A stretch of DNA of 64,000 nt, taken from positions 1,550,001-1,614,000 of the forward strand of contig NZ_CP093396.1 of assembly GCF_029027405.1 (NCBI RefSeq), in the 5' to 3' direction. This DNA comes from Sulfurimonas sp. (lineage in GTDB: Bacteria; Campylobacterota; Campylobacteria; Campylobacterales; Sulfurimonadaceae). Positions within the stretch are counted from its first letter, which is position 1. Every line of letters begins with the position of its first letter. Below the pieces are notes generated by a model, which had not been told where the DNA came from, searched no databases, and saw only the letters and a list, made by a program, of their open reading frames with translations. A program made the position numbers and the translations under genes. This document shows positions 10,287 through 25,187 of this stretch, piece after piece.

Positions 10287-11237
10287 CTATTTCAATAGTC
10301 TAGCAATTTTAACCTGAAGCTTTAGCCATAATTTATGTTCCATCAATGGAAAGCCAGAAAAAGTTAAGCCACTTTTCGTAATATTTTTAGTAATTCCACT
10401 TCTTGCCGCAAAGGTAGAAAATGGTGCTATTTCAAGATGTCCAGCAAATGCGGACTGTCCACCAACAACAACATTACGCCCTAGTTTTGTTGAACCTGCA
10501 CTTCCAGACTGTGCAACAAATACAGAATATTCACCTATTTCACAATTATGACCTATCTGAACAAGGTTATCAATACGAACACCTTTGTTTATACGGGTAG
10601 AACCAAAGACAGCTCTATCAACACTTACATTACTACCAATTTCAACATCATCTCCAATAACAACATTTCCATTTTGATATATCTTTTTATGTTCACCTTG
10701 AGCAGATGTTGCAAAACCAAAACCATCAGCACCAATAGCAGTGTTTGAATGGATAATACAATCACTCCCAATATGGCAATCTCTATAAACAGTTACATTG
10801 GGATAGATGATAGTATTATTCCCAATAACAGCCTCGCAACCAATATAAACATGAGCTAAAATCGTACAATTCTTACCAATCCTAGAACCATTTGCAATTT
10901 CGGCTTTAGAAGATATTTTACTACCCTCACCTATTAAAGCACCTGGAAGTTCTTCATTTTCAATAGGAGGTGCAAAGTATTTTGATAAAATTGCCATTGA
11001 CCAATATGAATCTTCTACTACTAAAGCCACACAATTATTTGGAATATGTTCCACCAAAGAAGCTGGAACTATAACAGCCCCAGCTTTTGTCGTTTGGATA
11101 TCTTTTATATACTTTGAGTTTGCAACAAAAGAAACTTCATTTACTTCAGCATCTTGAAGAGCATTCATTCCATTTATTTCAATATCTTTAAAATCATATT
11201 CACACTCTAATATAGAAGCAATGGCACTTAGTTTCAT
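10287..11237 (-). CDS. lpxD: UDP-3-O-acylglucosamine N-acyltransferase LpxD
   Basis: LpxD adds the N-linked hydroxyacyl chain in lipid A synthesis. The 316-residue protein has an N-terminal uridine-binding domain (about 1-100) and then a long left-handed beta-helix of hexapeptide repeats. The catalytic histidine lies in NLVQIGHNCEIG near residue 230. The C-terminal helices end in LQVKIARLLK. It follows ilvN by two bases, a gene pairing also known in Campylobacterota. Length is slightly below the roughly 340 of E. coli, as usual in this group. Confidence 0.93.
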   Translation of the reverse strand: MKLSAIASILECEYDFKDIEINGMNALQDAEVNEVSFVANSKYIKDIQTTKAGAVIVPASLVEHIPNNCVALVVEDSYWSMAILSKYFAPPIENEELPGALIGEGSKISSKAEIANGSRIGKNCTILAHVYIGCEAVIGNNTIIYPNVTVYRDCHIGSDCIIHSNTAIGADGFGFATSAQGEHKKIYQNGNVVIGDDVEIGSNVSVDRAVFGSTRINKGVRIDNLVQIGHNCEIGEYSVFVAQSGSAGSTKLGRNVVVGGQSAFAGHLEIAPFSTFAARSGITKNITKSGLTFSGFPLMEHKLWLKLQVKIARLLK

Positions 11238-11239
11238 CT

Positions 11240-11713
11240 TTATCTCTCTAGTGCAACAGCACCACCAACAACAATCTCTTTAGGATTGTATTTTTTGATG
11301 ATTTTTAGAAAGTTTTCAATTCTTTTTGGCTCATCTGCAACCATAGCAATAATTACATTATCTCCAACATTAACAATCTTTCCGTTATATGCTTCACATA
11401 GAGTATTTATATCTGTAATATTTTCACTTACAGGAAACTTAATTAGAGCCATCTCTTTTTCAACTAAATCAGCATGTTCATAAACTCTCAGAACTGGAAC
11501 AAGCTTATGTAATTGTTTTGTGATTTGCTCTATCACTCTAACCGATCCAGAAGTAACAATAGTCAACCTTGAATATTTACTCTCAGGAATAGGGGCAACA
11601 GTTAAAGATGTTATGTTATACCCACGACCAGAAAAAAGGTCTGTTATACGAGATAAAACACTCGCCTCATTAGCAACAATAACCGATATTACTCTTCTTT
11701 CATTATCAGCCAT
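11240..11713 (-). CDS. ilvN: Acetolactate synthase small (regulatory) subunit
   Basis: IlvN is the regulatory subunit that confers valine feedback control on acetolactate synthase. The 157-residue protein has an N-terminal ACT domain (VISVIVANEASVLSRITDLFSGRGYNI, positions 7-33) and a second C-terminal regulatory domain from about residue 80. Both are full length, so it is the long IlvH/N type. It overlaps the end of ilvB by one base, indicating coupled translation of the two subunits. Confidence 0.93.
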   Translation of the reverse strand: MADNERRVISVIVANEASVLSRITDLFSGRGYNITSLTVAPIPESKYSRLTIVTSGSVRVIEQITKQLHKLVPVLRVYEHADLVEKEMALIKFPVSENITDINTLCEAYNGKIVNVGDNVIIAMVADEPKRIENFLKIIKKYNPKEIVVGGAVALER

Positions 11714-13407
11714 TATTTCTCCTTTTTCTCTAGTAGCATCATATTAAACAAGCTTCCGCCTGATGGTACCATTGGCATGACATTTTCCATTCTGTGAACT
11801 ATTACTTCTATAAAAGCAACAATGTTTTTATCAATCGCATCTTTAAGTGCTGCATCAAACTCTTCTTTTGTATGAACTCTATAACCAAGTCCGCCAAAAG
11901 CTTCTGAAAGCTTTACAAAGTCTGGCTGAACACTTAAATCTGTCTCACTATGTCGTTTGTCATAAAAAAGTGTTTGCCATTGGCGAACCATACCAAGAAA
12001 GTTATTATTTAAAATAATATTTATTACTGGTAATTTTTGCTCAACTGCTGTCATTAATTCTTGACAGTTCATAAGAATTGAGCCATCTCCTGTAAAGTTT
12101 ATACTAACTTTATCTGGAGAAGCTGCTTTAACGCCTATCGCTGCCGGAAAACCAAAGCCCATAGTTCCAAGTCCGCCAGAACTTATAAACTGACGAGGAC
12201 GAGAAAATGGATAAAATTGACTTGTCCACATCTGATGCTGTCCAACATCTGTTGTAATATTTGCATCACCACCTAAAAGTTCTCCAACACGCTCTATGAC
12301 CCACTGAGGCTTAATACGCTCACTATCTTCATGATAAGTTAATGGATGCAGTTGTGCAAAATTCTCAACTGTTTCTCTCCAAGGCTCATACTTTTTTGAG
12401 TTTATTTTAGAAATTAAAGCTAACATGTCAAGAACAACATTTTTAACATCACCAACTATCGGATAATCTGCATTAATTAACTTGGATATAGATGCTGGGT
12501 CTATATCTACATGAATTACCCCAGCATTTTTAGCAAATTCTGATAATTTACCAGTTACACGGTCATCGAACCTTGCACCAAGAGCAATAACTAAATCTGT
12601 TTCACTCATCGCCATATTTGAAGCATACGAACCATGCATTCCTAACATTCCAACAAGCAAACTATCATCGTAACTTAAAACACCCCTAGCCATAAATGTT
12701 TCAACAGCAGGAATACCAGTTTTATGAACTAAATCTCTAACTTCATAAGCTGCATTTGCATTTATGATACCACCACCAAGATAAAAAAGAGGTCGCTTAG
12801 CATTTGCTATAGCATCTATAGCTTTTTTAATCTGACGCGGATTGCCTTTTGTGTGAGGCTTATAAGTTTCAAGATTAATATCAATAGAATAATCAAACTC
12901 TGCAATTTGAGCAGTAACATCTTTTGGGATATCAACATGTACAGGACCTGGCCTACCAGTTGCTGCGATGTGAAAAGCCTCTTTTAAAACTCTTGGTAAA
13001 TCTTTAGCATCTGTCACGAGATAATTATGTTTTGTACATGAACGACTAATTCCAACAGCATCTATCTCTTGAAAAGCATCTGTTCCAATTAAACTCATTG
13101 GGACTTGTCCACTTATTACAACTAAAGGAATAGAATCCATATAAGCATCTGCTAAACCCGTAACAGCATTAGTAAAACCTGGTCCACTAGTAATAAGAGC
13201 AACACCGACTTTACCACTTGCCTTTGAGTAGCCTTCCGCTGCGTGAACAGCTGCTTGCTCGTGTCTTGTCAAAATATGTTTAAAGTTATCTTGTTTGTAA
13301 ATCTCATCATAGACATTCATAATAGCTCCACCAGGGTAACCAAAAATGGTATCAACACCCTCTGCAACTAAAGCTTCAATGACCATCTGTGCGCCACTTA
13401 TTTGCAT
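11713..13407 (-). CDS. ilvB: Acetolactate synthase large (catalytic) subunit
   Basis: This thiamine-diphosphate enzyme condenses pyruvate units to acetolactate in branched-chain amino-acid synthesis. The N terminus has FGYPGGAIMNVYDEI and the TPP-activating glutamate in RHEQAAVHAAEGY. A central domain follows, and the TPP/Mg motif GDGSILMNCQELMTAVEQ to LNNN is near residues 440-465. The 564-residue length is normal. A GGAG site lies eight bases upstream, and a TATAAT sits about 30 bases upstream. ilvB heads the ilvB-ilvN-lpxD transcript. Confidence 0.95.
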   Translation of the reverse strand: MQISGAQMVIEALVAEGVDTIFGYPGGAIMNVYDEIYKQDNFKHILTRHEQAAVHAAEGYSKASGKVGVALITSGPGFTNAVTGLADAYMDSIPLVVISGQVPMSLIGTDAFQEIDAVGISRSCTKHNYLVTDAKDLPRVLKEAFHIAATGRPGPVHVDIPKDVTAQIAEFDYSIDINLETYKPHTKGNPRQIKKAIDAIANAKRPLFYLGGGIINANAAYEVRDLVHKTGIPAVETFMARGVLSYDDSLLVGMLGMHGSYASNMAMSETDLVIALGARFDDRVTGKLSEFAKNAGVIHVDIDPASISKLINADYPIVGDVKNVVLDMLALISKINSKKYEPWRETVENFAQLHPLTYHEDSERIKPQWVIERVGELLGGDANITTDVGQHQMWTSQFYPFSRPRQFISSGGLGTMGFGFPAAIGVKAASPDKVSINFTGDGSILMNCQELMTAVEQKLPVINIILNNNFLGMVRQWQTLFYDKRHSETDLSVQPDFVKLSEAFGGLGYRVHTKEEFDAALKDAIDKNIVAFIEVIVHRMENVMPMVPSGGSLFNMMLLEKKEK

Positions 13408-13435
13408 AAAAGTCTCCTATATTAAAAATTCGTTT

Positions 13436-13441
13436 ATTATA
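13436..13441 (-). promoter_or_regulatory. Predicted -10 box of ilvB-ilvN-lpxD
   Basis: On the minus strand a perfect TATAAT follows a T-run and lies about 30 bases before the ilvB ATG. The gap to the upstream gene is 88 bases. No leader peptide or attenuator was seen. Confidence 0.5.
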
Positions 13442-13495
13442 TAAAAAAAGAGCTATATTTGAGGTTAAAAGTAGTTGAAAAATTTATGCTTAAAG

Positions 13496-15622
13496 CTAGT
13501 CTAAGATGGACTTAACAATCATAGAGGTTCTCCACATACTGATAGAGCCCTTGGTTTGGAGACTTAAGTTAAGTTTTGAGCTTTTATACTCTCTTTTAAA
13601 AATAATAAAAAAGTTTTCAATTTGCTCTTGTAATCCGAAATATAATATATAATTTTTAATGCCATTTTCTATAATTAACTTGTTTTTTCTCTCTTTAACC
13701 GCTTTTTCCAATTGTGCCATATAGCACCAACCATAGATATTTGCTAAAGGTATATTTTTAGAACTTATTTTCATATATTTTTTAAAAATCATGTTTATTT
13801 CTAAAATATTTCCATCAACAACATATTCATTCGCACAAGCTACATCAACATTCCAATCTTCTTGAAGGCGTAATCCATCTTGGGTTTTTTGAAGTTCCTC
13901 ATTCTCAGACAGATAATTATATGCAGATGCTATATCTTCCTCTTCTAATGCATTAAAGAATTTTTGTTTTTCTTCAATTTCTTTCATAAGTTGTTTAACT
14001 TCAACAGAAAAATCACTGAAATCTAACAATATTCTAAGAATTTTTAAAGCAGCATGAGTTTCACCTTGCTCTAATAATTTATGACTTTTTATATACATAA
14101 AGTCTGCAAAATTAATAAGATTATCATACTCAACTAGTTCTTTTAAAAAAGGATGTTGCTTAACAAGCTCAAAAGAAACTTTATAGTCCTTTTGTCCAAC
14201 AGCAATTCTAAACCTCTTTTGAACTTCACTCTTATTTAAAAGTTCTTGTATCAACTTTGTTTTCTGTGCTGTTCCTCTGTATGGAGCAAGTATTTCTTTG
14301 GCAGTGTCAGCACCTTTAGGTTGTATTACACATTTTTGAGCCAAATTAAATGCTTTTTTCCAACCAGCTTCTAAGCCCCTATAAACTTTAGAATCCTTAT
14401 ACATTGGATGTTTTGTAATCATTGAATAAGCAAGAGCTAGTTTACCATTTTCAACTAAATATGCAAACTTGTCAAATTCTTCATATTCAATTATTACTTT
14501 TTGCATTATTGCATTTTTTGATGGAATGTTTTTAAATTGTCTAAAAAGGTTCAGTGCTCCTTGCTTATCTCCAGTTTCAAGTGCTTGTTTAGCTTTTTTA
14601 AGTGTTGTATCCCATAAGTTCATTACCAAATGATATATCTTTGTATATGCTAAAAGTGGGTTTTGTTCAACATAACGCTGTATTTCTTCATACTTTTTAT
14701 GTTGAAGTAACTCTCTTATATATATTTCTCCCTCATATATCGAGTAAAATAACAAGTCCCCTTCTTCCGTTCCAACTATCAACTCATCTCTTGTTTTATC
14801 AAACTCTAATGCTGTTATAGTTGACTTTAACTTTATATATTTTTTAGCTAATATTTTATAGCTTTCAAGTTCATAAACCAATACATAACCAAGTTGCGTA
14901 GCTAAAAATAAAAACTCATCATTTGCACTGCTTGTAATGTGAAGCACATCATCATGAATACCTTTCAGCCTTGTTATCACCTTACCTTTAAGATAATCCC
15001 AAATAATCCCATTATTACTATTATCTACACTAAAAAGCCTGTGTTCGCTTAAAAAGTAAACTTTCATAACAGGATTATTATGTCCTTTTAGTCTATGTTT
15101 TCTTGACATCATTGTCATGTTAAAAATATGAATTTTTTTATCATAAGAAGCAGTTGCTACCCATTGAGAATTATCACTAAATACAATATCATTTACTGTA
15201 TCTACATGAATAGGAAGATTAAAAGCAATTTTTTTAGTTTTTAAATCTAATGCATGAGATTTTCCATCATCACCTCCACTAAACATATACTTACCTTTAG
15301 GGTCAATAGACACGCATGTAGCTTCACCCTGATGTCTATCAATTTTTGCAATCATTTTTTTTGTTTTAGCATCATAAAGTCTAGCTTCACTACATGTTGC
15401 ATTTAAAATACCAAATAATGAAGCATCACTGCTAAAGTCTATAACACTATTCTTATATCTAAGATGCGTAATATTTAACTTAAAACCACTTTTAGTTTTT
15501 AATGTTTTAATGTCTAAAAATTTTACTACACTTTTTGCATTTACAACCAAAAGAGTTCCATCTGCAAGAATCTTTATCTTTACTAATGCTTCTTCAAATT
15601 TTTTTTCTTTTATGGTTTTCAT
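13496..15622 (-). CDS. WD40-like beta-propeller protein with helical-repeat C-terminal half
   Basis: The function is unknown. The 708-residue protein has no signal peptide. Residues 1 to about 310 form WD40-type repeats (HQGEATCVSIDPKGKYMFSG, HVDTVNDIVFSDNSQWVATAS, KGHNNPVMKVYF, IHDDVLHITSSANDEFLFLAT), enough for about one seven-bladed propeller. From about 310 to the end the sequence is almost all amphipathic helix in irregular repeats (LQHKKYEEIQRYVEQNP, TGDKQGALNLFRQF, QGETHAALKILRILLDF), like TPR-type or alpha-solenoid repeats. It is probably a cytoplasmic scaffold. It lies five bases downstream of ilvA. Confidence 0.75.
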   Translation of the reverse strand: MKTIKEKKFEEALVKIKILADGTLLVVNAKSVVKFLDIKTLKTKSGFKLNITHLRYKNSVIDFSSDASLFGILNATCSEARLYDAKTKKMIAKIDRHQGEATCVSIDPKGKYMFSGGDDGKSHALDLKTKKIAFNLPIHVDTVNDIVFSDNSQWVATASYDKKIHIFNMTMMSRKHRLKGHNNPVMKVYFLSEHRLFSVDNSNNGIIWDYLKGKVITRLKGIHDDVLHITSSANDEFLFLATQLGYVLVYELESYKILAKKYIKLKSTITALEFDKTRDELIVGTEEGDLLFYSIYEGEIYIRELLQHKKYEEIQRYVEQNPLLAYTKIYHLVMNLWDTTLKKAKQALETGDKQGALNLFRQFKNIPSKNAIMQKVIIEYEEFDKFAYLVENGKLALAYSMITKHPMYKDSKVYRGLEAGWKKAFNLAQKCVIQPKGADTAKEILAPYRGTAQKTKLIQELLNKSEVQKRFRIAVGQKDYKVSFELVKQHPFLKELVEYDNLINFADFMYIKSHKLLEQGETHAALKILRILLDFSDFSVEVKQLMKEIEEKQKFFNALEEEDIASAYNYLSENEELQKTQDGLRLQEDWNVDVACANEYVVDGNILEINMIFKKYMKISSKNIPLANIYGWCYMAQLEKAVKERKNKLIIENGIKNYILYFGLQEQIENFFIIFKREYKSSKLNLSLQTKGSISMWRTSMIVKSILD

Positions 15623-15627
15623 AATTT

Positions 15628-16830
15628 TTAATCTCTTAGATATCCCTCTTCTTTTAAAATATATCTAATTTTTTCTTGATGTTCTTCGCCTTTAGTTTCC
15701 ATATGAACAGTAACATTGGCATCTCCATAATCAAGAGAAACTTCTGTTCTATCATAAGCTATATGAACTATATTTGCATTAAGTTCTTCAAGTATCTCGG
15801 TAAACCTCATTAAAGAACCAGGTTTATCTATGAGAGTCACAGTTATTTTCATTTTTCTGCCAGACTTTAAAAGACCTTTTTCAATTATGACAGAGAGAAG
15901 AGTTACATCCATGTTCCCGCCACTAAGAACGAGAGCTACTTTTTTACCCTTTAAATGTGAAAGTTTATTGTGCAAGATTGTTGCAACTGAAGCTGCCCCT
16001 GCTCCTTCAACTACAAGTTTTTGTTTTTCTAGTAAAAAGAGGATTGCACTTGCTATCTCTTCATCATCAACACTAACAAACTTATCTACATTTTTAAGTG
16101 CATATTGAAGTGTTATGTTTGAAGTATCACGAACTGCTATACCATCTGCTATTGTTCTTACACTCGTACTATCAATAGGTTCTTTCAGTTCATAAGAATT
16201 TTTAAATGCTGGAGCACCTAAAGCACTAACACCTATTACTTCTATATTTGGATTTATACTTTTAAAAACAGTTGCCATTCCGGCTATAAGTCCACCACCA
16301 CCAACAGGAATAACCACAGCATCTAAAGACTTACAATCATCTAAAATATCTAAAGCTAAAGTACCCTGTCCACTAATCACTTCTTCATCTTCAAATGGAT
16401 GAACAAATGTAAGAGAATTTTCATCTCCATACTCTAAGGCATAAGCATAAGCTTCATCATAATTTGCGCCAGCTAAAATAACCTCTGCACCATAATGCTT
16501 TACGCCATTTACTTTTGTTAATGGTGTTGACTCTGGCATAACTATAACGGCTCTTATATTAAACTTTGAGGCAGAAAGAGCTACTCCTTGAGCATGATTT
16601 CCTGCACTAGCCGCCACAACTCCACACGCTCTTTGTTCATCGCTTAAAGATGCTATTTTATTATAAGCACCTCTAATTTTAAAAGCACCAGTCACCTGTA
16701 AATTCTCTTGTTTTATAAAAACTTCACAAGAAGAAATTTCACTCAAATGCGTAGCATATGAAAGAGGAGTTTTTACGACAATATTTTTTATACGCTCACG
16801 CGCTTCATAAACTTTTTCTATACTTAACAA
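15628..16830 (-). CDS. ilvA: Threonine ammonia-lyase (threonine deaminase)
   Basis: This PLP enzyme converts threonine to 2-oxobutyrate, the entry to isoleucine synthesis. The PLP lysine is in TGAFKIRGAYNK near residue 52. The SAGNHAQGVA loop follows near 80, and the phosphate-binding GGGGLIAG near 180. One C-terminal ACT domain (about 325-400, KITVTLIDKPGSLMRFTEIL) makes it the short, single-ACT form rather than the two-domain IlvA of E. coli. It is separated from ilvBN only by the WD40 gene, so the isoleucine genes are loosely grouped. Confidence 0.92.
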   Translation of the reverse strand: MLSIEKVYEARERIKNIVVKTPLSYATHLSEISSCEVFIKQENLQVTGAFKIRGAYNKIASLSDEQRACGVVAASAGNHAQGVALSASKFNIRAVIVMPESTPLTKVNGVKHYGAEVILAGANYDEAYAYALEYGDENSLTFVHPFEDEEVISGQGTLALDILDDCKSLDAVVIPVGGGGLIAGMATVFKSINPNIEVIGVSALGAPAFKNSYELKEPIDSTSVRTIADGIAVRDTSNITLQYALKNVDKFVSVDDEEIASAILFLLEKQKLVVEGAGAASVATILHNKLSHLKGKKVALVLSGGNMDVTLLSVIIEKGLLKSGRKMKITVTLIDKPGSLMRFTEILEELNANIVHIAYDRTEVSLDYGDANVTVHMETKGEEHQEKIRYILKEEGYLRD

Positions 16831-16837
16831 TTTTTTA

Positions 16838-17269
16838 CTAACCTACCATCTCTCTATGTTCTACCATCGTACACATATTTTGCACAACCTTCATTCCAGC
16901 TTCTTTTGCTTTTTGAGCAGCCACATTATTTACAATCTCTTTTTGAGCCCAAAACACTTTAATATCACCTCTTTGGATACAAGCATCTGCAACAGCATCT
17001 AAGGCATTTGGTTTTCTAAATATATCTACCATATCAACATTAAAAGGTATTTCTTTAAGTGAATGATAAACTTTTTCACCTAAAATAGTTTCACCTTTTG
17101 GGTAGATTGGAACTATTTTAAAGCCTTGTTCTTGTAGATACTTAGCAACTTTATGACTTGCCTTTGACTCATCAGGAGAAAGACCTAAAATAGCAATAGT
17201 TTTAGTTGTATTAAAAATTTCTTTTATTTCTTGTTTGTTTGAATTTACTGAGGGGAATTCACACTCCAT
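16838..17269 (-). CDS. CoA-binding protein, YccU type
   Basis: The 143-residue protein is a single Rossmann-like CoA-binding domain. Visible motifs are TIAILGLSPDESKASHKVA near residue 28, PIYPKGETILGEKVY near 58, VDIFRKP near 85 and the closing QNMCTMVEH segment. This matches the YccU/succinyl-CoA-ligase-like stand-alone family, whose cellular role is not settled. AAGGA eight bases upstream supports the ATG. It is seven bases upstream of ilvA and probably co-transcribed with it. Confidence 0.85.
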   Translation of the reverse strand: MECEFPSVNSNKQEIKEIFNTTKTIAILGLSPDESKASHKVAKYLQEQGFKIVPIYPKGETILGEKVYHSLKEIPFNVDMVDIFRKPNALDAVADACIQRGDIKVFWAQKEIVNNVAAQKAKEAGMKVVQNMCTMVEHREMVG

Positions 17270-17358: not shown

Positions 17359-18741
17359 CTAATCAACTTTCACTTTACTTAAGGCAACTACTGCTGCTAC
17401 TACCACATCTGGATGAAACTGTATAGCACTTAGACTTTCAAGTTCTTTTAAAGCAACTTTTATACTCTTTTTCTCTTTATATACTCTATTTGTTGTCATT
17501 GCATCAAAGGCATCTGCAACAATCATAATCTGACTTAGAGGTTTAATCTCATTACCTTTTAGACCTCTAGGATAGCCACTTCCATCATATCTTTCATGGT
17601 GTTCTCTCATTACATCAGACAATACTTTATATTGATCAATCTGATATAACATTTCATAGCCAGAGTCTAGATGCTTTTTAATTAACTCATATTCAAAATC
17701 ATCAAATTGAGATTGTTTTAACAAAACGCTATCTGATGTTGATATTTTACCTATATCATGAAGCCATGCTGCATTTTTTATTAACTCTATATCTTTTTTA
17801 TTATATTTCATTTCTTTAGCAATAAGAACGCAGTATTTTGAAACTCTTTTGCTATGCCCAGCTGCATAAGAGTCTCTTGATTCAATCATATCAATCATTG
17901 AGTGAATCATCTGTTCTTGATTTTTAATTTTCTCTTCTTTTAATACATTTATTGTATTTTGATGAGTTTTATCTTTAAAAATAACTACTGAACCAACTAT
18001 GTTATTATCGGCATATAGTGGTGTCACTAGCATTGAAACATGTAGAAATAAACCATCTTTTTTTACTAAAACTTCATTTTCATTACTGTAAATTTCACCA
18101 TCATTCATACATTTATAGACACTACAATCATGAAATAACAATGGTTTATTTTCACTGTTTTTATAGTGTATGTAGTCATGAATTTTAACATTTAAAAGTT
18201 CTTTAGAGTCAAAACCTAAAAGTTTTAGTGCTTCATTATTTATAAAGCTCGTTTTTCCATCTATTGTTAAAGTATAGATGCCATCGCCTATACTTTGTGC
18301 TATATCATAAAAGTTTTTCTCACTTTGTTGTAATTGATTTTTTTGTTCAAATATCTTTAAATAAAGTGTTATTTTATTTAAAAGTTGATTATCATCTATT
18401 GGTTTTGTAAGATAGTCTACTGCTCCTAATTCAAAACCTTGAGCTATAAAATCATCACTTTTAAAAACAGCCGTTACAAAGATAATGGGTATATCTTTAG
18501 TCTTCTTATTTGACTTAATTAACTTTGCTAATTCAAATCCATTTATATCTGGCATCTGAACATCACATATTATAAGGTCAATATGTTGAGTAAGCAGTAT
18601 ATCAAGTGCTTCCTTCGCACCAACTGCTTCAATTGGAACAATATTTCCAACTGTACTCAAAAGAGCATTAAGAGTAAAAAGGTTATTTTTATTGTCATCT
18701 ATAGATAAAATTTTATATTTAAATATCTCTACTGTTGGCAT
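17359..18741 (-). CDS. Response regulator: REC-PAS-HD-GYP (c-di-GMP phosphodiesterase)
   Basis: The domain order is receiver (about 10-125, phosphoacceptor D60 in IICDVQMPD, KP at 113-114), PAS (about 140-255) and HD-GYP (about 270-450). The HD pair is H328-D329, followed by HH at 381-382 and an intact GYP at 389-391, so c-di-GMP hydrolysis is expected. The gene overlaps the end of the GGDEF regulator by 13 bases and is the last of the five-gene signalling operon. Phosphotransfer from the hybrid kinase encoded in the same operon is inferred, not shown. Confidence 0.88.
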   Translation of the reverse strand: MPTVEIFKYKILSIDDNKNNLFTLNALLSTVGNIVPIEAVGAKEALDILLTQHIDLIICDVQMPDINGFELAKLIKSNKKTKDIPIIFVTAVFKSDDFIAQGFELGAVDYLTKPIDDNQLLNKITLYLKIFEQKNQLQQSEKNFYDIAQSIGDGIYTLTIDGKTSFINNEALKLLGFDSKELLNVKIHDYIHYKNSENKPLLFHDCSVYKCMNDGEIYSNENEVLVKKDGLFLHVSMLVTPLYADNNIVGSVVIFKDKTHQNTINVLKEEKIKNQEQMIHSMIDMIESRDSYAAGHSKRVSKYCVLIAKEMKYNKKDIELIKNAAWLHDIGKISTSDSVLLKQSQFDDFEYELIKKHLDSGYEMLYQIDQYKVLSDVMREHHERYDGSGYPRGLKGNEIKPLSQIMIVADAFDAMTTNRVYKEKKSIKVALKELESLSAIQFHPDVVVAAVVALSKVKVD

Positions 18742-19991
18742 ACCCTATTTCGTCCTTTTTCTTTTGCTTCGTACAGCGCAGTGTCTGCTCTACCAATCAT
18801 TTCTTCAAGTGTATCATCTTCTTTATGCTCAGTTATACCAAAACTACAAGTAATGCTCTTAACCTCTTCAAACACCTCTAGTTCAATATGTTTTCTCAAA
18901 CTATTGGCGATTTCAATACCTTTTTCAAGTCCAACATCTAAAGCTAAAACAAACTCTTCTCCACCCCATCTAGCAAAGATGTCATTTGAGCGAATATGTT
19001 TGTGAATAAGTGCAGATAACCGCTGCAAAACTTTATCTCCAACTAAGTGTCCATAGTTATCATTTACATTTTTAAAAAAATCTATATCTAACAAAATAAA
19101 TATAAATGGTCTTTTATATTTCTTTGAATCTAACATTTTTGCATCAATTAGTTTATGAAACATATTTCTATTATATATTTTAGTTAGTGCATCGTAGTTT
19201 GCTTCATGCTTATACTCTAGTGAAATTTTTGTAAGTTGCGTAATATCTGTCAATGTAACTATATATTTATCAGTAAAAACATTTGCTTTTAAATTAAATA
19301 TATACTCAACTTCATTTTGAAGAATTTTAACCACAACATCTTCGTTCACAGATAGTTTCATAACTTCATATATCCACATAGATGGGATTTTTAAAAGAGC
19401 TAAACTAAAGTATCCATTTTCTTCAATAAAGCTAAAGGAAATACATTTGTGGGTATCTATAAAAGATTCTATAGAATCCATATCGTAAAAATCAAGAAGT
19501 GCGCTATTTACGCTTGTTGCTTTCTTTCCATCCGTAACCACTATGATATTTTCTTGAAAATCTAAAATTCCCTGAGCATAATTTTTTTCTTTTTTAAGTT
19601 CAACTTCTTTATTTTTTAATTCTAAATGAAAAGATATACGCGATAGAAGTTCTATATGATTAAAAGGCTTATTAATATAATCCACACCACCCAATTTATA
19701 ACATTCTTCTATGGTCTCATCATCTTTTTTAGCTGTTACAAAAATAATAGGTATCTCTTTTGTTCTTTTATTTGACCTTATCATTTTTGCGGCACTAAAA
19801 CCATCTATTTCTGGCATCATAATATCAAGTAAAATCAAATCAACTCTTTGTCTTAGAAGTATGTCTAACCCTTCATGTGCTGAGTTGCAAAGAATTAATT
19901 CATAATTATTACTTGCCACAGTATCTATAACACTTTTTATTGTAAAAAGATTTTCCTCTGTATCATCAATACATAATATAGTTTTTTTCAT
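18729..19991 (-). CDS. Response regulator with GGDEF diguanylate cyclase
   Basis: The 420-residue protein has a receiver (1-125, phosphoacceptor D56 in ILLDIMMPE). A divergent PAS-like middle region (about 140-255) follows, and then a GGDEF domain. The catalytic signature is intact as GGEEF at 343-347. An RxxD inhibitory site (RSND, 334-337) lies exactly five residues before it, so product feedback inhibition is expected. It starts on the last base of the CheB-CheR gene and overlaps the HD-GYP regulator gene, placing opposing c-di-GMP enzymes side by side in one transcript. Confidence 0.88.
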   Translation of the reverse strand: MKKTILCIDDTEENLFTIKSVIDTVASNNYELILCNSAHEGLDILLRQRVDLILLDIMMPEIDGFSAAKMIRSNKRTKEIPIIFVTAKKDDETIEECYKLGGVDYINKPFNHIELLSRISFHLELKNKEVELKKEKNYAQGILDFQENIIVVTDGKKATSVNSALLDFYDMDSIESFIDTHKCISFSFIEENGYFSLALLKIPSMWIYEVMKLSVNEDVVVKILQNEVEYIFNLKANVFTDKYIVTLTDITQLTKISLEYKHEANYDALTKIYNRNMFHKLIDAKMLDSKKYKRPFIFILLDIDFFKNVNDNYGHLVGDKVLQRLSALIHKHIRSNDIFARWGGEEFVLALDVGLEKGIEIANSLRKHIELEVFEEVKSITCSFGITEHKEDDTLEEMIGRADTALYEAKEKGRNRVCQQ

Positions 19992-21667
19992 TACGCCACT
20001 TTCCTAAATATTTTGTTATTAACTTCACATACTGCACATACTTCAAATTTATCTGCATATTTTTGTATGATACTCTCACTTTCACCCAAAATCAAATACC
20101 CTCCAAACTTTAAAGATTCATAAAACAATGCAAAAACTCTGTTTTGTAATTTCTGCTCAAAGTATATTATGACATTTTTACAAACTATCATATCAAACTC
20201 ATTAAAAGAACTGTCTTCAACAAGATTATGTTGGAAAAAATGTATTTTTTCTTTAATTTTATTATTTACAGATACAAAGTTATTATTTTGAACTAGATAA
20301 TTATTTAAAATTATCTCTATGTTAAACTTAGCTAAATTACTTAAAGCCAAGTAGTATGACTCTTTTGAATAAAGAGCATTTTTAGCTTCTTGCAATACAA
20401 CATCATTAAAATCTGTTGCGTAGATGATTGTTTTATCTAAGAGCTTTAAATAATCAAGCAAAATAGCAACAGAGAAAGCCTCCTCTCCACTACTACACCC
20501 TGCACTCCAGACCTTTAAACTATGATGTCCTTTGGCATAAACTTGTAAAATTTCGGCAACCTGTTTAAAAGAATTGGTATTTCTAAAAAATTCTGTAACA
20601 TTAATAGATATATCTAAAAAAAAAGCTTTAAAAGCACTTTTATTAAATATAATCATACTTATAGCATCTTTAATATTTCTAAGACTATTTTTTGTCATAA
20701 ATACACTTAATCTACGACTTATCATATCAACATGGTAAAGTTTAAAATTGTAATCATATTTTTTTTCTATCATATCTACAAGATACTCAACCCAGGCTTC
20801 TTTTGTCGTAATATTATCTACAATATTTATATAAATTACGATATCTTTAATAGAAAAAACATAATCATGTGCATTTACAGCTAAAGCATTTTTAACCATT
20901 GATTTGGCTTTACACTCTTCTACTTTTTGTATTATTAAAACTGAGTTATTACTTTTTAAATATCTAAGTTTATCTACTCCATCACTGGCAAAACCACACT
21001 CTTGTATGACAAGCAGTTTATCTTTATAGTATGAAGAAAAGGATTCATAACTAAGAGAAACAGATGGTTTAGCAAAGTTATACTTCTCACTATCACAAAG
21101 AGAAAAATGTCCATCTATAACTTTTAAATGCTTATTATTTGGAGCCAAATAGATTGAGGCTTTTTTTATTTTTTCTCCATCTTTGGCATAACTTACTTTG
21201 TATTTTGTATGTTTGTTAAGTATTTCATCAAAAAAATCAAGTTTATTTGGCTTTGTATGTTGAACAACTACAAGAGTTGAATTATCAAGTTTTACATTTT
21301 TGACTATTTCTAAAATCTTCGAAGAGGAATCAGTACTTCCTCCTATCAAAATAACCTCAATATTTTCAAGGTTTACAACATCTAACTTTATAAGAGACTC
21401 AAAAGTAGTTTTAAATCCAAGCTTATAAAAATATTTATTTAGTTTATATTGATGCGTAGTAATTGTAATTTTTTTTAAATTTTCAAATATCTCTCTATAT
21501 AGTATATTTAGTATTTCTATATCTACTGCATATATATAAGTAAACTCCAAATGCCATGAAAAATAATTTTTAGAGAAAACTAAAGATAATTGCTTTGTAT
21601 CAGAACTAGTTAATGGAGCTTCTAGTACGACATGACAATTTTCTTTATTGTTAAATAATTTAATCAT
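19991..21667 (-). CDS. STAS-CheB-CheR fusion (methylesterase/methyltransferase)
   Basis: The 558-residue protein has three parts. Residues 1-95 look like a STAS domain (TYIYAVDIEILNIL, KLNKYFYKLGFK). Residues 103-270 are a CheB methylesterase domain without a receiver; the catalytic triad appears as S111 in GGSTD, H137 in VVQH and D229 in SDG. Residues 285-555 are a CheR methyltransferase with the SAM motif AGCSSGEEAFS (389-399), the ATDFN segment and VCKNVIIYF. CheB and CheR normally demethylate and methylate chemoreceptor glutamates. Here the neighbour is a hybrid kinase, not a receptor, one base upstream. Confidence 0.85.
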   Translation of the reverse strand: MIKLFNNKENCHVVLEAPLTSSDTKQLSLVFSKNYFSWHLEFTYIYAVDIEILNILYREIFENLKKITITTHQYKLNKYFYKLGFKTTFESLIKLDVVNLENIEVILIGGSTDSSSKILEIVKNVKLDNSTLVVVQHTKPNKLDFFDEILNKHTKYKVSYAKDGEKIKKASIYLAPNNKHLKVIDGHFSLCDSEKYNFAKPSVSLSYESFSSYYKDKLLVIQECGFASDGVDKLRYLKSNNSVLIIQKVEECKAKSMVKNALAVNAHDYVFSIKDIVIYINIVDNITTKEAWVEYLVDMIEKKYDYNFKLYHVDMISRRLSVFMTKNSLRNIKDAISMIIFNKSAFKAFFLDISINVTEFFRNTNSFKQVAEILQVYAKGHHSLKVWSAGCSSGEEAFSVAILLDYLKLLDKTIIYATDFNDVVLQEAKNALYSKESYYLALSNLAKFNIEIILNNYLVQNNNFVSVNNKIKEKIHFFQHNLVEDSSFNEFDMIVCKNVIIYFEQKLQNRVFALFYESLKFGGYLILGESESIIQKYADKFEVCAVCEVNNKIFRKVA

Positions 21668-21668
21668 A

Positions 21669-24600
21669 CTACTTTATCCACGCTCTTATCATAGATACTA
21701 AAGCACTATGGTTTAATGGTTTTGCTAAATAGTCATCTGCTCCAGCATCTAAACATTTATTTCTATCTTCAGGCATGGTTTTTGCAGTAATTGCTATGAT
21801 TGGAATATGCTTAAATTTACCATCAGCTTTTATATTTTTTATAGCTGATAAACCATCCATGATTGGCATCATAATATCCATTAAAATCATGTCTATCTTC
21901 TCTTCTTCCACTAATATTTCTATAGCTTCTTTCCCATTAAAAGCACTAAAAACTTCTGCGTTCATACTCTCTAATGTCGATGTAAGAGTAAATATATTTC
22001 TGCTATCATCATCCACTATCAGTATATTTTTACCACTAAATTCATTTTCACAGTACTCATCATTATCATTATCTATAATAGATAAACTTTCCACTTCTGC
22101 AACTCTAAGAACTTCTTTTTTTTCTGATGTTTTAACTTTGATCTGAGTGTCTTTTTTAATAGGTAAAGAGAGTATAAATGAAGAACCTTCACCAAGTCGG
22201 CTAATAACAGAAATATCTCCTTTTAAAATATCCATAATATTTTTACTTATAGAAAGACCAAGTCCTGTTCCACCAAACTCTCTACTTATACTTCCATCAA
22301 CTTGCTTAAATGCTTCAAATATAGTTTCTAATTTATCTTCTGGTATTCCTATTCCACTATCTTTAACAACTACATTTAAGATATCATCTTTTATATATAT
22401 ATTTATACTTACGATGCCTTTTTTTGTAAACTTAAAAGCATTACTTAACAAGTTTTTCATGACTTGGGAAAGCTTTGTTATGTCAGTTAAAAATGTGGAA
22501 TTAAAGTTATCATTTATTATAAAATCAAGTTTTTTTTCTTTTGCTAAAGCACCGAAAAGTCCTTGCATATCACTTAATAAATCACTTGTTTGTAGCTTCT
22601 CATAAATTAATTCCATCTTCCCTGATTCTATCTTAGTTAAATCTAGTATATCATTTATAAGAAGCAGTAAGTCATTTCCTGCTTTATGAATAACTACTGA
22701 TTTTTTGATGTCTTTATCATCAAGAGTATCATTCTGATTTTGTGTCAAAAGTTTAGAAAGTAGTATTATAGAGTTTAAAGGTGTCCTTAATTCATGACTC
22801 ATATTTGCTAAAAATTCACTTTTATATTTTGAAGCTTTTTCTAAATCTTGTGCTCTTTGGTCAATCTCAGCTTTTGCTTCTGCTAAAGTATCGTTTTTAA
22901 ATTTCAATTCTTTAGACTGAATAGTAAGTTGTTGTTGTTGTTGTTCCATCTGAACATTTGATTCTTGAAGCTCTTCACTTTGAGTTTGTAACTCTTCAAA
23001 AGCTTTTTGTGATTTTTCAAAGAGAGATTTTATCTTTTCATTTTGAGCAGCTGAAAATATAGTTGTTGCAAAAATAGAAGCAGCTTTTGAAAGATAGTTT
23101 TTATGAATATTATTAAAACCTTCAAAACTCATCATTTGAGCAACACCAAAAAGTTTACCATCACGCAAAAGTGGAAAAGTATAAACTTCTTTTGGTTTTG
23201 AAAGAATCAGTCCACTATGTATGTCAAAATCTCCATCTTTAATATTTGTAAGCGAAATAGGCTTTTGTTCTAATCCAACTTGTCCAACTACTCCTTCTCC
23301 TAGTTTATACTTTTTTGAAAGAGATTCTGAAGTATGTGCAAAAGAAGCTACAAGGCTCAAAAGCTTTACTTCATTATCAAAAGTATATAAAACACCACTA
23401 ATAGCTCCAACATATCGACAAGCCATAGTAATAGCCTTTTTTGATAATTCCAAGGTGTCACTTATCCCTGCTAACTTGTCACTAAAATCCCCAATACCTT
23501 CACTGAAATAAATTTCATTTTTATTTTTTACACTTGAATTGCTAAGCATATTAGTCATCTTAACAATCGCTGTCCCCAGTTCATCATTTTTTGATTTTAT
23601 TTCTATTGACGAACTAAAATCTTCAACAGAGATTGCATTTGCCTGTTTTAAAATAGTTTTCAAATACTTAATCATTCTTAAAATTGCACGACCTAACCTA
23701 TCGTCAGCACTTTTAGCTTTATATTTGACATCTATATTTCCAAGAGCAATAGACTCTGTAAGTTCAGTTATCTTTTTAAGGTACTCAACCATATCAATAA
23801 GCGCCAAACCTAGTTTATCTTCTGAATTATTCGCTATTACTTTTACATCGTAATTTCCAAGAGAAAGACTTTGAGAAAGAGAAGTTATCTCTTTTAATCT
23901 TAAAGTCATTCTTGAGATAGCAAGACCAAGTTCATCATTTTTACCTAAAAGTTTTATATCTTTCGTAAAGTTTCCATCTGCTACTGCATTTGCCTGTTTT
24001 ATAGTAGTCTCTATTGCATCTACGAGTTTTGAAGTTGATTTTACTATCTCTCCAATTTCATCATTTGAATCATACTTTATATGCTCTCTTTGTATCTCTC
24101 CATCTGATAGTGCTTTTAACTGAGCTGTAACTTTTGTAAGTGGAGTTGTAATTTTTAAAACAAATATGCGAATTATTAGAATACCTACAAAAAGAACAAA
24201 AACAAAAAGAAGCATAAATATTAGTTTAAAATCATTAAGTTTTAAAAGTGCAACTGACTCCTCGGTGCTAGAGACTAAATACCAATAATTTTCACTAAAT
24301 AAATTAAGAGGGTAGATTTTATCAAATGAATATATTTTCCCATTTTTTGTAAAAGAACCATTTTCTGCATTTTTGAAGTTCTTTGCAATATCAAAGTTAT
24401 CTTTAAAAAAAGTTTCACCATTTTTCAACTGTCTATTCCATCTTTTAGATTTATCTTTATGGTATAAATAGTTAGAATCTTTATCTATTAAGAAATAAGA
24501 AATTCCATTTTCAACATCTTTTGTACTTTGTTCCTCTAAGATATCTAAAATATTTTTCGCATAAAAACTAATTATAAAAATAGCAACCATTTTATTATTT

Positions 24601-25187
24601 TTATTTACAATAGGAGTAGCATACCGAAGAACAGGTGTATATGGTTTTTGTATTACACCATCTTGTATATTCAGATTCATATCTGAAACATAAAACTCAC
24701 CTTTTTTAAATTTTTTTGTTTTTTCTACATAATCTCTGCTACTTTTATTTTCTAACTTTGCATCTGCAAATAACACTGTACGATTTATTTCTTTATTGTA
24801 CTCTACCTTTATTATTTCTTGTCCATCTAAAGCTATAACTCTTGCCTTAAAGTATGTTTTTTGCGTTTGCAAAAAATCAACTAAAGCATCTGAAAACACC
24901 TGCTTCCATACCTTAGTTTTTTTATCTTCTCCCATAGAATTCCAAATAAGGAATTTCTTTAGCGCATAAAAATTAGCTTTATAAAGTACATCTTTTGGTA
25001 CGCGTTCTAACTCTTTTTTTATCGCTATATTTAATAGTTTTACACTATGTTGTGAAATCCTATAAGCTGCATCTAGGTAAGCGTCCGAGGTACTCTTCAT
25101 ACCATACCAACCAATTAAACCAATAGAGAGCATGACAGTAGTGACAAATACTAAAAAGATCTTGTTGTAAAGTGAAATATTTTTCAT
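21669..25187 (-). CDS. Hybrid sensor histidine kinase with five HAMP-like units, GAF and receiver
   Basis: This is a 1172-residue membrane kinase. Helices at 9-27 and 322-344 flank a periplasmic double-Cache-like sensor. A HAMP (about 345-398) is followed by four more HAMP-like units of about 38 residues, each ending in a DELG/DKLG/DRLG-type motif (to about 553). Next come a GAF domain (565-715), a glutamine-rich coiled coil (720-795), HisKA with H798 in SHELRTP, an ATPase domain (DSGIGIP, GGTGLGLSIS) and a C-terminal receiver with D1104. All catalytic motifs are intact. It probably drives the downstream regulators; the ligand is unknown. Confidence 0.9.
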   Translation of the reverse strand: MKNISLYNKIFLVFVTTVMLSIGLIGWYGMKSTSDAYLDAAYRISQHSVKLLNIAIKKELERVPKDVLYKANFYALKKFLIWNSMGEDKKTKVWKQVFSDALVDFLQTQKTYFKARVIALDGQEIIKVEYNKEINRTVLFADAKLENKSSRDYVEKTKKFKKGEFYVSDMNLNIQDGVIQKPYTPVLRYATPIVNKNNKMVAIFIISFYAKNILDILEEQSTKDVENGISYFLIDKDSNYLYHKDKSKRWNRQLKNGETFFKDNFDIAKNFKNAENGSFTKNGKIYSFDKIYPLNLFSENYWYLVSSTEESVALLKLNDFKLIFMLLFVFVLFVGILIIRIFVLKITTPLTKVTAQLKALSDGEIQREHIKYDSNDEIGEIVKSTSKLVDAIETTIKQANAVADGNFTKDIKLLGKNDELGLAISRMTLRLKEITSLSQSLSLGNYDVKVIANNSEDKLGLALIDMVEYLKKITELTESIALGNIDVKYKAKSADDRLGRAILRMIKYLKTILKQANAISVEDFSSSIEIKSKNDELGTAIVKMTNMLSNSSVKNKNEIYFSEGIGDFSDKLAGISDTLELSKKAITMACRYVGAISGVLYTFDNEVKLLSLVASFAHTSESLSKKYKLGEGVVGQVGLEQKPISLTNIKDGDFDIHSGLILSKPKEVYTFPLLRDGKLFGVAQMMSFEGFNNIHKNYLSKAASIFATTIFSAAQNEKIKSLFEKSQKAFEELQTQSEELQESNVQMEQQQQQLTIQSKELKFKNDTLAEAKAEIDQRAQDLEKASKYKSEFLANMSHELRTPLNSIILLSKLLTQNQNDTLDDKDIKKSVVIHKAGNDLLLLINDILDLTKIESGKMELIYEKLQTSDLLSDMQGLFGALAKEKKLDFIINDNFNSTFLTDITKLSQVMKNLLSNAFKFTKKGIVSINIYIKDDILNVVVKDSGIGIPEDKLETIFEAFKQVDGSISREFGGTGLGLSISKNIMDILKGDISVISRLGEGSSFILSLPIKKDTQIKVKTSEKKEVLRVAEVESLSIIDNDNDEYCENEFSGKNILIVDDDSRNIFTLTSTLESMNAEVFSAFNGKEAIEILVEEEKIDMILMDIMMPIMDGLSAIKNIKADGKFKHIPIIAITAKTMPEDRNKCLDAGADDYLAKPLNHSALVSMIRAWIK

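Follow-up and report, generated by a model that had tools for sequence, protein, structure and literature searches.

Protein architectures in which a beta-propeller is followed by an alpha-solenoid are usually discussed for the coats and pores of eukaryotes and for bacteria of the PVC group. In the WD40-solenoid scaffolds of eukaryotes, such as IFT-A subunits, COPI and nucleoporins, the domains come in the same order as in the protein described here. The membrane-coat architecture has been set out as an N-terminal propeller joined to C-terminal stacked helices in a protein of 500-1500 aa (Santarella-Mellwig 2010, PMC2799638). That paper covers 162 complete and 13 incomplete bacterial proteomes; among prokaryotes it reports the layout only in PVC members, and it calls convergence possible.

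We analysed a stretch of 64,000 nucleotides from a Sulfurimonas genome (NZ_CP093396.1, positions 1,550,001 to 1,614,000; hereafter the window) that encodes a protein of this kind in the Campylobacterota. We denote the protein and its family of about 710 aa WDS, and the copy in the window WDS-A. With 708 aa and its AlphaFold model, WDS-A fits the architectural criterion of PMC2799638. The PVC membrane-coat-like proteins and WDS share the layout and the presence of several paralogs per genome; they differ in phylum, the modelled PVC members measure 1039-1287 aa, and the likeness is one of architecture alone. Unlike for the PVC proteins, no link to internal membranes was seen for WDS.

The WDS-A gene lies on the reverse strand (13496..15622), where a single open reading frame with an ATG start codon fills the whole interval. 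This frame aligns nearly end to end, with four gap residues, to homologs that are 68, 58 and 45% identical, and WDS-A is therefore a real gene. Its product is predicted to be a two-part protein, a seven-bladed propeller joined to a regular helical rod. The AlphaFold model, built from a four-sequence alignment (mean pLDDT 81.9, pTM 0.52), has 27 strands through residue 294 and helices alone from 299 to 707, and a separate model of residues 296-708 repeated the helix pattern (pLDDT 83.6, pTM 0.43). Because both pTM values are low, the shape and interfaces in these models are unreliable: the helices are credible, the overall curve is not.

The first part, residues 1-296 (14735..15622, reverse strand), is assigned as a seven-bladed WD40 beta-propeller from Pfam, phmmer comparison to the PDB, the AlphaFold strands and VIA. 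Pfam WD40 (PF00400) matches with E=1.7e-15 and 57.2 bits against a cut-off of 27, and VIA aligns these residues to solved WD40/G-beta propellers with Z 28.5-29.5 over 280-288 residues at rmsd 2.8-3.3. The predicted model is a closed seven-bladed fold with one weak strand stretch at 139-143. The propeller resembles that of PkwA (PDB 5yzv; TM 0.82 by target length), whose solved chain is the WD40 domain alone, with no solenoid for comparison.

We were not able to match WDS-A to an enzyme family in Pfam or NCBIfam, nor eight C-terminal halves of the family in Pfam; the NCBIfam scan of WDS-A gave nothing meaningful, and no Pfam or NCBIfam family spans WDS. No transmembrane stretch was found in WDS-A (the peak 19-residue hydropathy is 1.38), and reading of its N-terminus gave no signal peptide. 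A preliminary description, made from the sequence of the window, had pictured a soluble protein with a propeller-solenoid layout and no enzymatic motif. The Pfam, NCBIfam and hydropathy results agree with this picture, and the layout is borne out by PF00400, by VIA and by the AlphaFold helices at 299-707.

The helical repeats, which the same description had called irregular, turned out to be regular. The alpha-solenoid comprises residues 297-708 (13499..14734, reverse strand), as read from the AlphaFold helices, with no Pfam family above cut-off. A profile of 46 WDS C-terminal halves, drawn from all three clades of the family (see below), was compared with itself and gave peaks at offsets 169, 253 and 84 (robust z 8.0, 7.1 and 7.1), with lesser peaks at 85 (z 4.1) and 42 (z 3.5); the 34-residue period of TPR is absent from this profile (z -0.7 at offset 34). 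The top three-harmonic score was -5.7, at 84, against a best of -22.6 in 500 plain shuffles and -21.6 in 500 block shuffles that preserved blocks of seven columns. Four units follow one another on the reverse strand: R1 (residues 311-394, 14441..14692), R2 (395-479, 14186..14440), R3 (480-563, 13934..14185) and R4 (564-647, 13682..13933). All six pairs of their sub-alignments match mutually, with hhalign probabilities of 97.3-99.5% (98.5-99.5% for R1 with the others, 98.1-99.5% for R2, 97.3-98.6% for R3 and 97.3-98.7% for R4). The 84-residue peaks and the matching units therefore describe the rod as four 84-residue units and a C-terminal part, and each unit probably consists of two 42-residue hairpins.

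Pfam found no family at cut-off in the eight C-terminal halves; the sole TPR model seen, TPR_6, reached 11.3-11.4 bits against a cut-off of 26.3 in two of them. Against PDB sequences the solenoid profile gave five matches at E<=1, namely repeat proteins, either designed or of the kinesin-light-chain type, together with a designed cage and one small protein. There was no coat or pore protein among the five. The preliminary description, too, had not implied common ancestry with the eukaryotic scaffolds. The best of these matches were of the kinesin-light-chain type (PDB 4y6c and 4y6w, E=0.0036 and 0.02), which presumably consist of 42-residue TPR-like repeats; the match is weak and spans about 140 residues, and in WDS two such sub-units form an 84-residue super-repeat. 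A profile of the 84-residue unit gave chance-level matches to the PDB (best E=0.0056). Foldseek on the solenoid returned nothing at E<=0.001; the nearest structures were TPR co-chaperones, and IFT-A chains came further down as weak matches of the solenoid alone (E>0.001, TM by query length <=0.20). With VIA, the solenoid model (pTM 0.43) gave a best Z of 8.6 at rmsd 28.5, and many of the matches were TPR proteins, with no coat family at high Z among the matches listed.

The solenoid is thus likely to be of a divergent long-TPR-like class. As a formal call, ordinary TPR was rejected because the TPR models fall below cut-off and there is no 34-residue period; the fold class is kept as likely. 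The preliminary description had named ordinary TPR, or disorder without solenoid continuity, in the C-terminal half as the finding that would speak against it. Neither was found: the helices run on without a break, the repeat length is 84 residues (2 x 42), and TPR_6 stays below cut-off. As for the eukaryotic scaffolds, no sequence match was seen, though a remote kinship is possible, and WDS differs from them by its 84-residue repeat and its single propeller. We saw no support for a membrane-coating function of WDS or for a descent from eukaryotic proteins.

WDS matches are present in the genomes of 84 of 99 relatives. Among the 60 same-genus genomes in that table, 55 have a clade A copy, whole or partial, and none was seen in the other five (G003, G012, G023, G034 and G047). 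Across the phylum, the C-terminal profile matched 99 of 298 Campylobacterota genomes, in 27 of 58 genera; this survey scored the best few candidates per genome, so that its copy numbers are minimum values. Within the genome of the window, WDS-A has one paralog, which is 21% identical along almost its entire length. A single-protein scan of genome contigs gave three Sulfurimonas loci and one propeller-only match in Chloroflexota, and the solenoid was not found in one Chloroflexota genome. We considered a mobile element and rejected it, the C-terminal half having no match in plasmid or phage collections. A text search of the literature, covering few subscription journals, found no description of the family, which is apparently undescribed.

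We collected 141 distinct WDS proteins of at least 520 aa, 113 of which are 700-719 aa long. In their tree, clade A (73 proteins, support 0.993) takes in all 57 proteins with an ilv neighbour in the arrangement of the window, clade B (19 proteins, support 1.0) all 17 with fliI directly downstream, and clade C (45 proteins, support 0.99) all 14 linked to a domain that we denote X. Two cases stand out by copy number: a tandem pair of WDS genes lies at L090:3819-8118, and a genome of the same order (G066) has 13 matches to WDS against one to five elsewhere, some of them perhaps not full family members.

In the window, WDS-A sits within a conserved run of reverse-strand genes. A CoA-binding-domain protein (16838..17269, PF13380) is followed by ilvA, encoding threonine ammonia-lyase (15628..16830, TIGR01127), which ends 5 nt before WDS-A and is kept in relatives; ilvA and WDS-A are probably co-translated. 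After a measured gap of 88 nt (13408..13495) come ilvB directly downstream (acetolactate synthase large subunit, 11713..13407, NF006319/TIGR00118), ilvN (small subunit, 11240..11713, TIGR00119) and lpxD (10287..11237, TIGR01853), which closes the run. Among the 30 same-genus clade A loci first fetched, ilvB is directly downstream in all 30 and ilvA directly upstream in 29, with no ilvA found within the remaining locus (L013). The ilvA-WDS gap measures -7 to +7 nt in 28 of 29 measured same-genus loci, and the WDS-ilvB gap 77-120 nt in 27 of 29. The linkage to ilvA persists in other families, where WDS identity has fallen to about 30% (L039, L041, L045).

WDS diverges far faster than these neighbours, with about 50% identity within the genus against about 88% for ilvB. 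One complete genome of the same genus (G012) keeps ilvA-ilvB-ilvN-lpxD with WDS absent and an ilvA-ilvB gap of 115 nt; since this relative is cleanly without it, WDS-A is an accessory part of the run. In other genera a Ppx/GppA gene can come after WDS in the same run (L141, L144), so the site takes varied guests. The clade A WDS gene has therefore long belonged to the ilv run but can be dispensed with.

Several further observations concern clade A. One homolog (L008, G025:C176:5917-7971) contains three TAG and one TAA codons within the matched stretch, which points to gene decay or to poor assembly. At L067:5992-7656 and L068:4412-6070 there are second copies of clade A type, 552-554 aa long, without about 150 C-terminal residues and with unrelated neighbours. 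Upstream of the run, positions 17359-25187 of the window hold signalling genes that we labelled by reading their translations as REC-PAS-HD-GYP-like, REC-GGDEF-like and CheB/CheR-like, together with a 1172-aa ORF. As a partner of WDS-A this cluster is treated as chance, because the other loci of the genus that we read do not have it next to WDS-A.

Clade B genes adjoin recJ and fliI. At L036:1452-7356 (G000, about 2.79 Mb), the genome's clade B paralog lies behind an operon for a molybdopterin oxidoreductase of the polysulfide/thiosulfate-reductase type, together with small cytochrome-like genes, all named from reading of the sequences. The sulfur-type genes at clade B sites vary, being a psr-like operon in the genome of the window and a Pyr_redox_2 or metallo-beta-lactamase gene elsewhere. 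We did not accept a functional tie of clade B to sulfur metabolism, because recJ and fliI are constant and the sulfur-type genes variable.

The most interesting part of the family is the signalling-linked clade C with its X domain. In a Pfam scan of the neighbours, many clade C WDS genes proved to have a REC and/or PAS gene next to them; the sensor gene is usually directly upstream of WDS, sometimes overlapping it, and ends in X, a C-terminal region of about 130 residues after REC/PAS that lies outside Pfam coverage. At two loci (L145, L150) the cluster has a histidine kinase besides the REC-X gene. X is homologous in 10 of the 11 REC/PAS proteins compared, as the copies match each other in phmmer. 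A REC gene at L163 that was at first grouped with X has an unrelated C-terminus and was rejected. Identification of X as a plain PAS domain is unsupported (hhalign 6.1% over 25 columns), and a weak resemblance remains.

We built an X profile from the 10 rows and ran it on the 99 relatives and on the 298 phylum genomes, counting rows of at least 40 bits and leaving out 36 weaker rows in the first run and three in the second. In the relatives, all 14 such rows lie within two genes of WDS, eight of them being rows of the model; in the phylum genomes 18 of 20 adjoin WDS or lie one gene further, five of them being model rows. The remaining two stand in tandem at the end of a contig in G362, and another contig of that genome begins within a WDS gene. 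With model rows taken out and duplicates counted once, 17 of 19 new distinct X rows lie within two genes of WDS; many of these come from one genus (g20) and are thus not independent. In the phylum draw, X matches at E<=1e-8 occur in eight genera. One X frame just before WDS lacks a called ORF (G077). In genomes of f20/g20 the reading frames of X and WDS share about 25 nt, which suggests that their translation may be coupled. In the fetched loci 31 of the 45 clade C proteins are without an X gene, and no X partner was found for WDS-A in its own genome, where the best X-like match is weak (23.5 bits). At a further fixed clade C site, WDS is preceded by a divergent polysaccharide deacetylase gene and followed by a DprA gene (L095, L096, L161; identified by Pfam at L095, and by size and order at the other two).

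Other members of the family stand beside genes for environmental sensors, and WDS-A is therefore probably a protein-binding adaptor. On balance, we lean towards a role for WDS-A as a non-enzymatic adaptor or scaffold that binds proteins in the cytoplasm. The scaffold or organiser role of the preliminary description gains new support from the linkage of clade C to REC/PAS-X genes, and it is still a role that we infer. The WD40 propeller would be a first binding platform and the TPR-like solenoid of 84-residue units a second, so that two or more partners could be held together. In clade C, the input to a REC and/or PAS-X protein would be phosphorylation or a PAS signal, and the protein would engage the co-encoded WDS, a non-transcriptional effector, through its X domain; judged from gene linkage, clade C WDS is probably the effector of REC/PAS-X proteins. 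WDS-A, made with threonine deaminase from one gene run, may do like work on a different partner. For a soluble protein with no catalytic family, two surfaces and, in one clade, a co-encoded REC/PAS partner, the simplest reading is an adaptor that assembles under the control of a sensor; against it, gene order can be inherited without functional coupling. More tentatively, WDS might be the output arm of an undescribed module that runs from REC/PAS through X to a propeller-solenoid effector, with clades A and B standing alone in housekeeping runs.

Since ilvA nearly touches WDS-A, IlvA is a candidate partner, and WDS-A could instead be an accessory factor of branched-chain amino-acid synthesis that binds or organises IlvA and/or IlvBN and tunes flux or holds the enzymes together. 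Such a role fits the ilvA-WDS-ilvB order, which 29 of 30 loci of the genus show, as well as the near-zero ilvA-WDS gaps and the persistence of the ilvA linkage in other families. We nevertheless consider it unlikely: G012 lacks the gene cleanly, and clade B (beside recJ/fliI) and clade C (in signalling) employ the same fold elsewhere; both facts argue against a purely metabolic role, as do the fast divergence of WDS relative to ilvB and the Ppx/GppA gene in the same run of other genera. It is also conceivable, if rather improbable, that WDS is an ordinary WD40-TPR protein kept by operon inheritance, with the X pairing of clade C as one local use. TPR proteins are indeed the best Foldseek match of the solenoid and figure often among its VIA matches, and the 42-residue sub-period fits long TPR-like hairpins; however, no TPR model reaches cut-off, the 34-residue period is absent, length is tightly constrained, and the 84-residue super-repeat appears in a profile from all three clades. 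That WDS shapes or lines internal membranes as a membrane-coat-like protein, as proposed for Planctomycetes and Verrucomicrobia, seems very improbable to us. It fits the architectural definition of PMC2799638, but the likeness is of architecture alone, WDS-A has no transmembrane stretch, coat proteins in the PDB have no sequence match to the solenoid profile, and the linkage is to sensor and housekeeping genes rather than to membrane biogenesis.

At the clade C loci, response-regulator and PAS proteins that lack any other recognised output domain are seen to end in a shared, unannotated domain, X. If the proposed pairing of X with WDS is true, it would represent a bacterial scaffold controlled by phosphorylation or a PAS signal, without a DNA-binding or c-di-GMP output. 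A compact family of Campylobacterota carries the propeller-solenoid layout with a distinct regular repeat, and one of its branches is tied to sensor proteins; the role of such a scaffold in a bacterium can therefore be put to the test.
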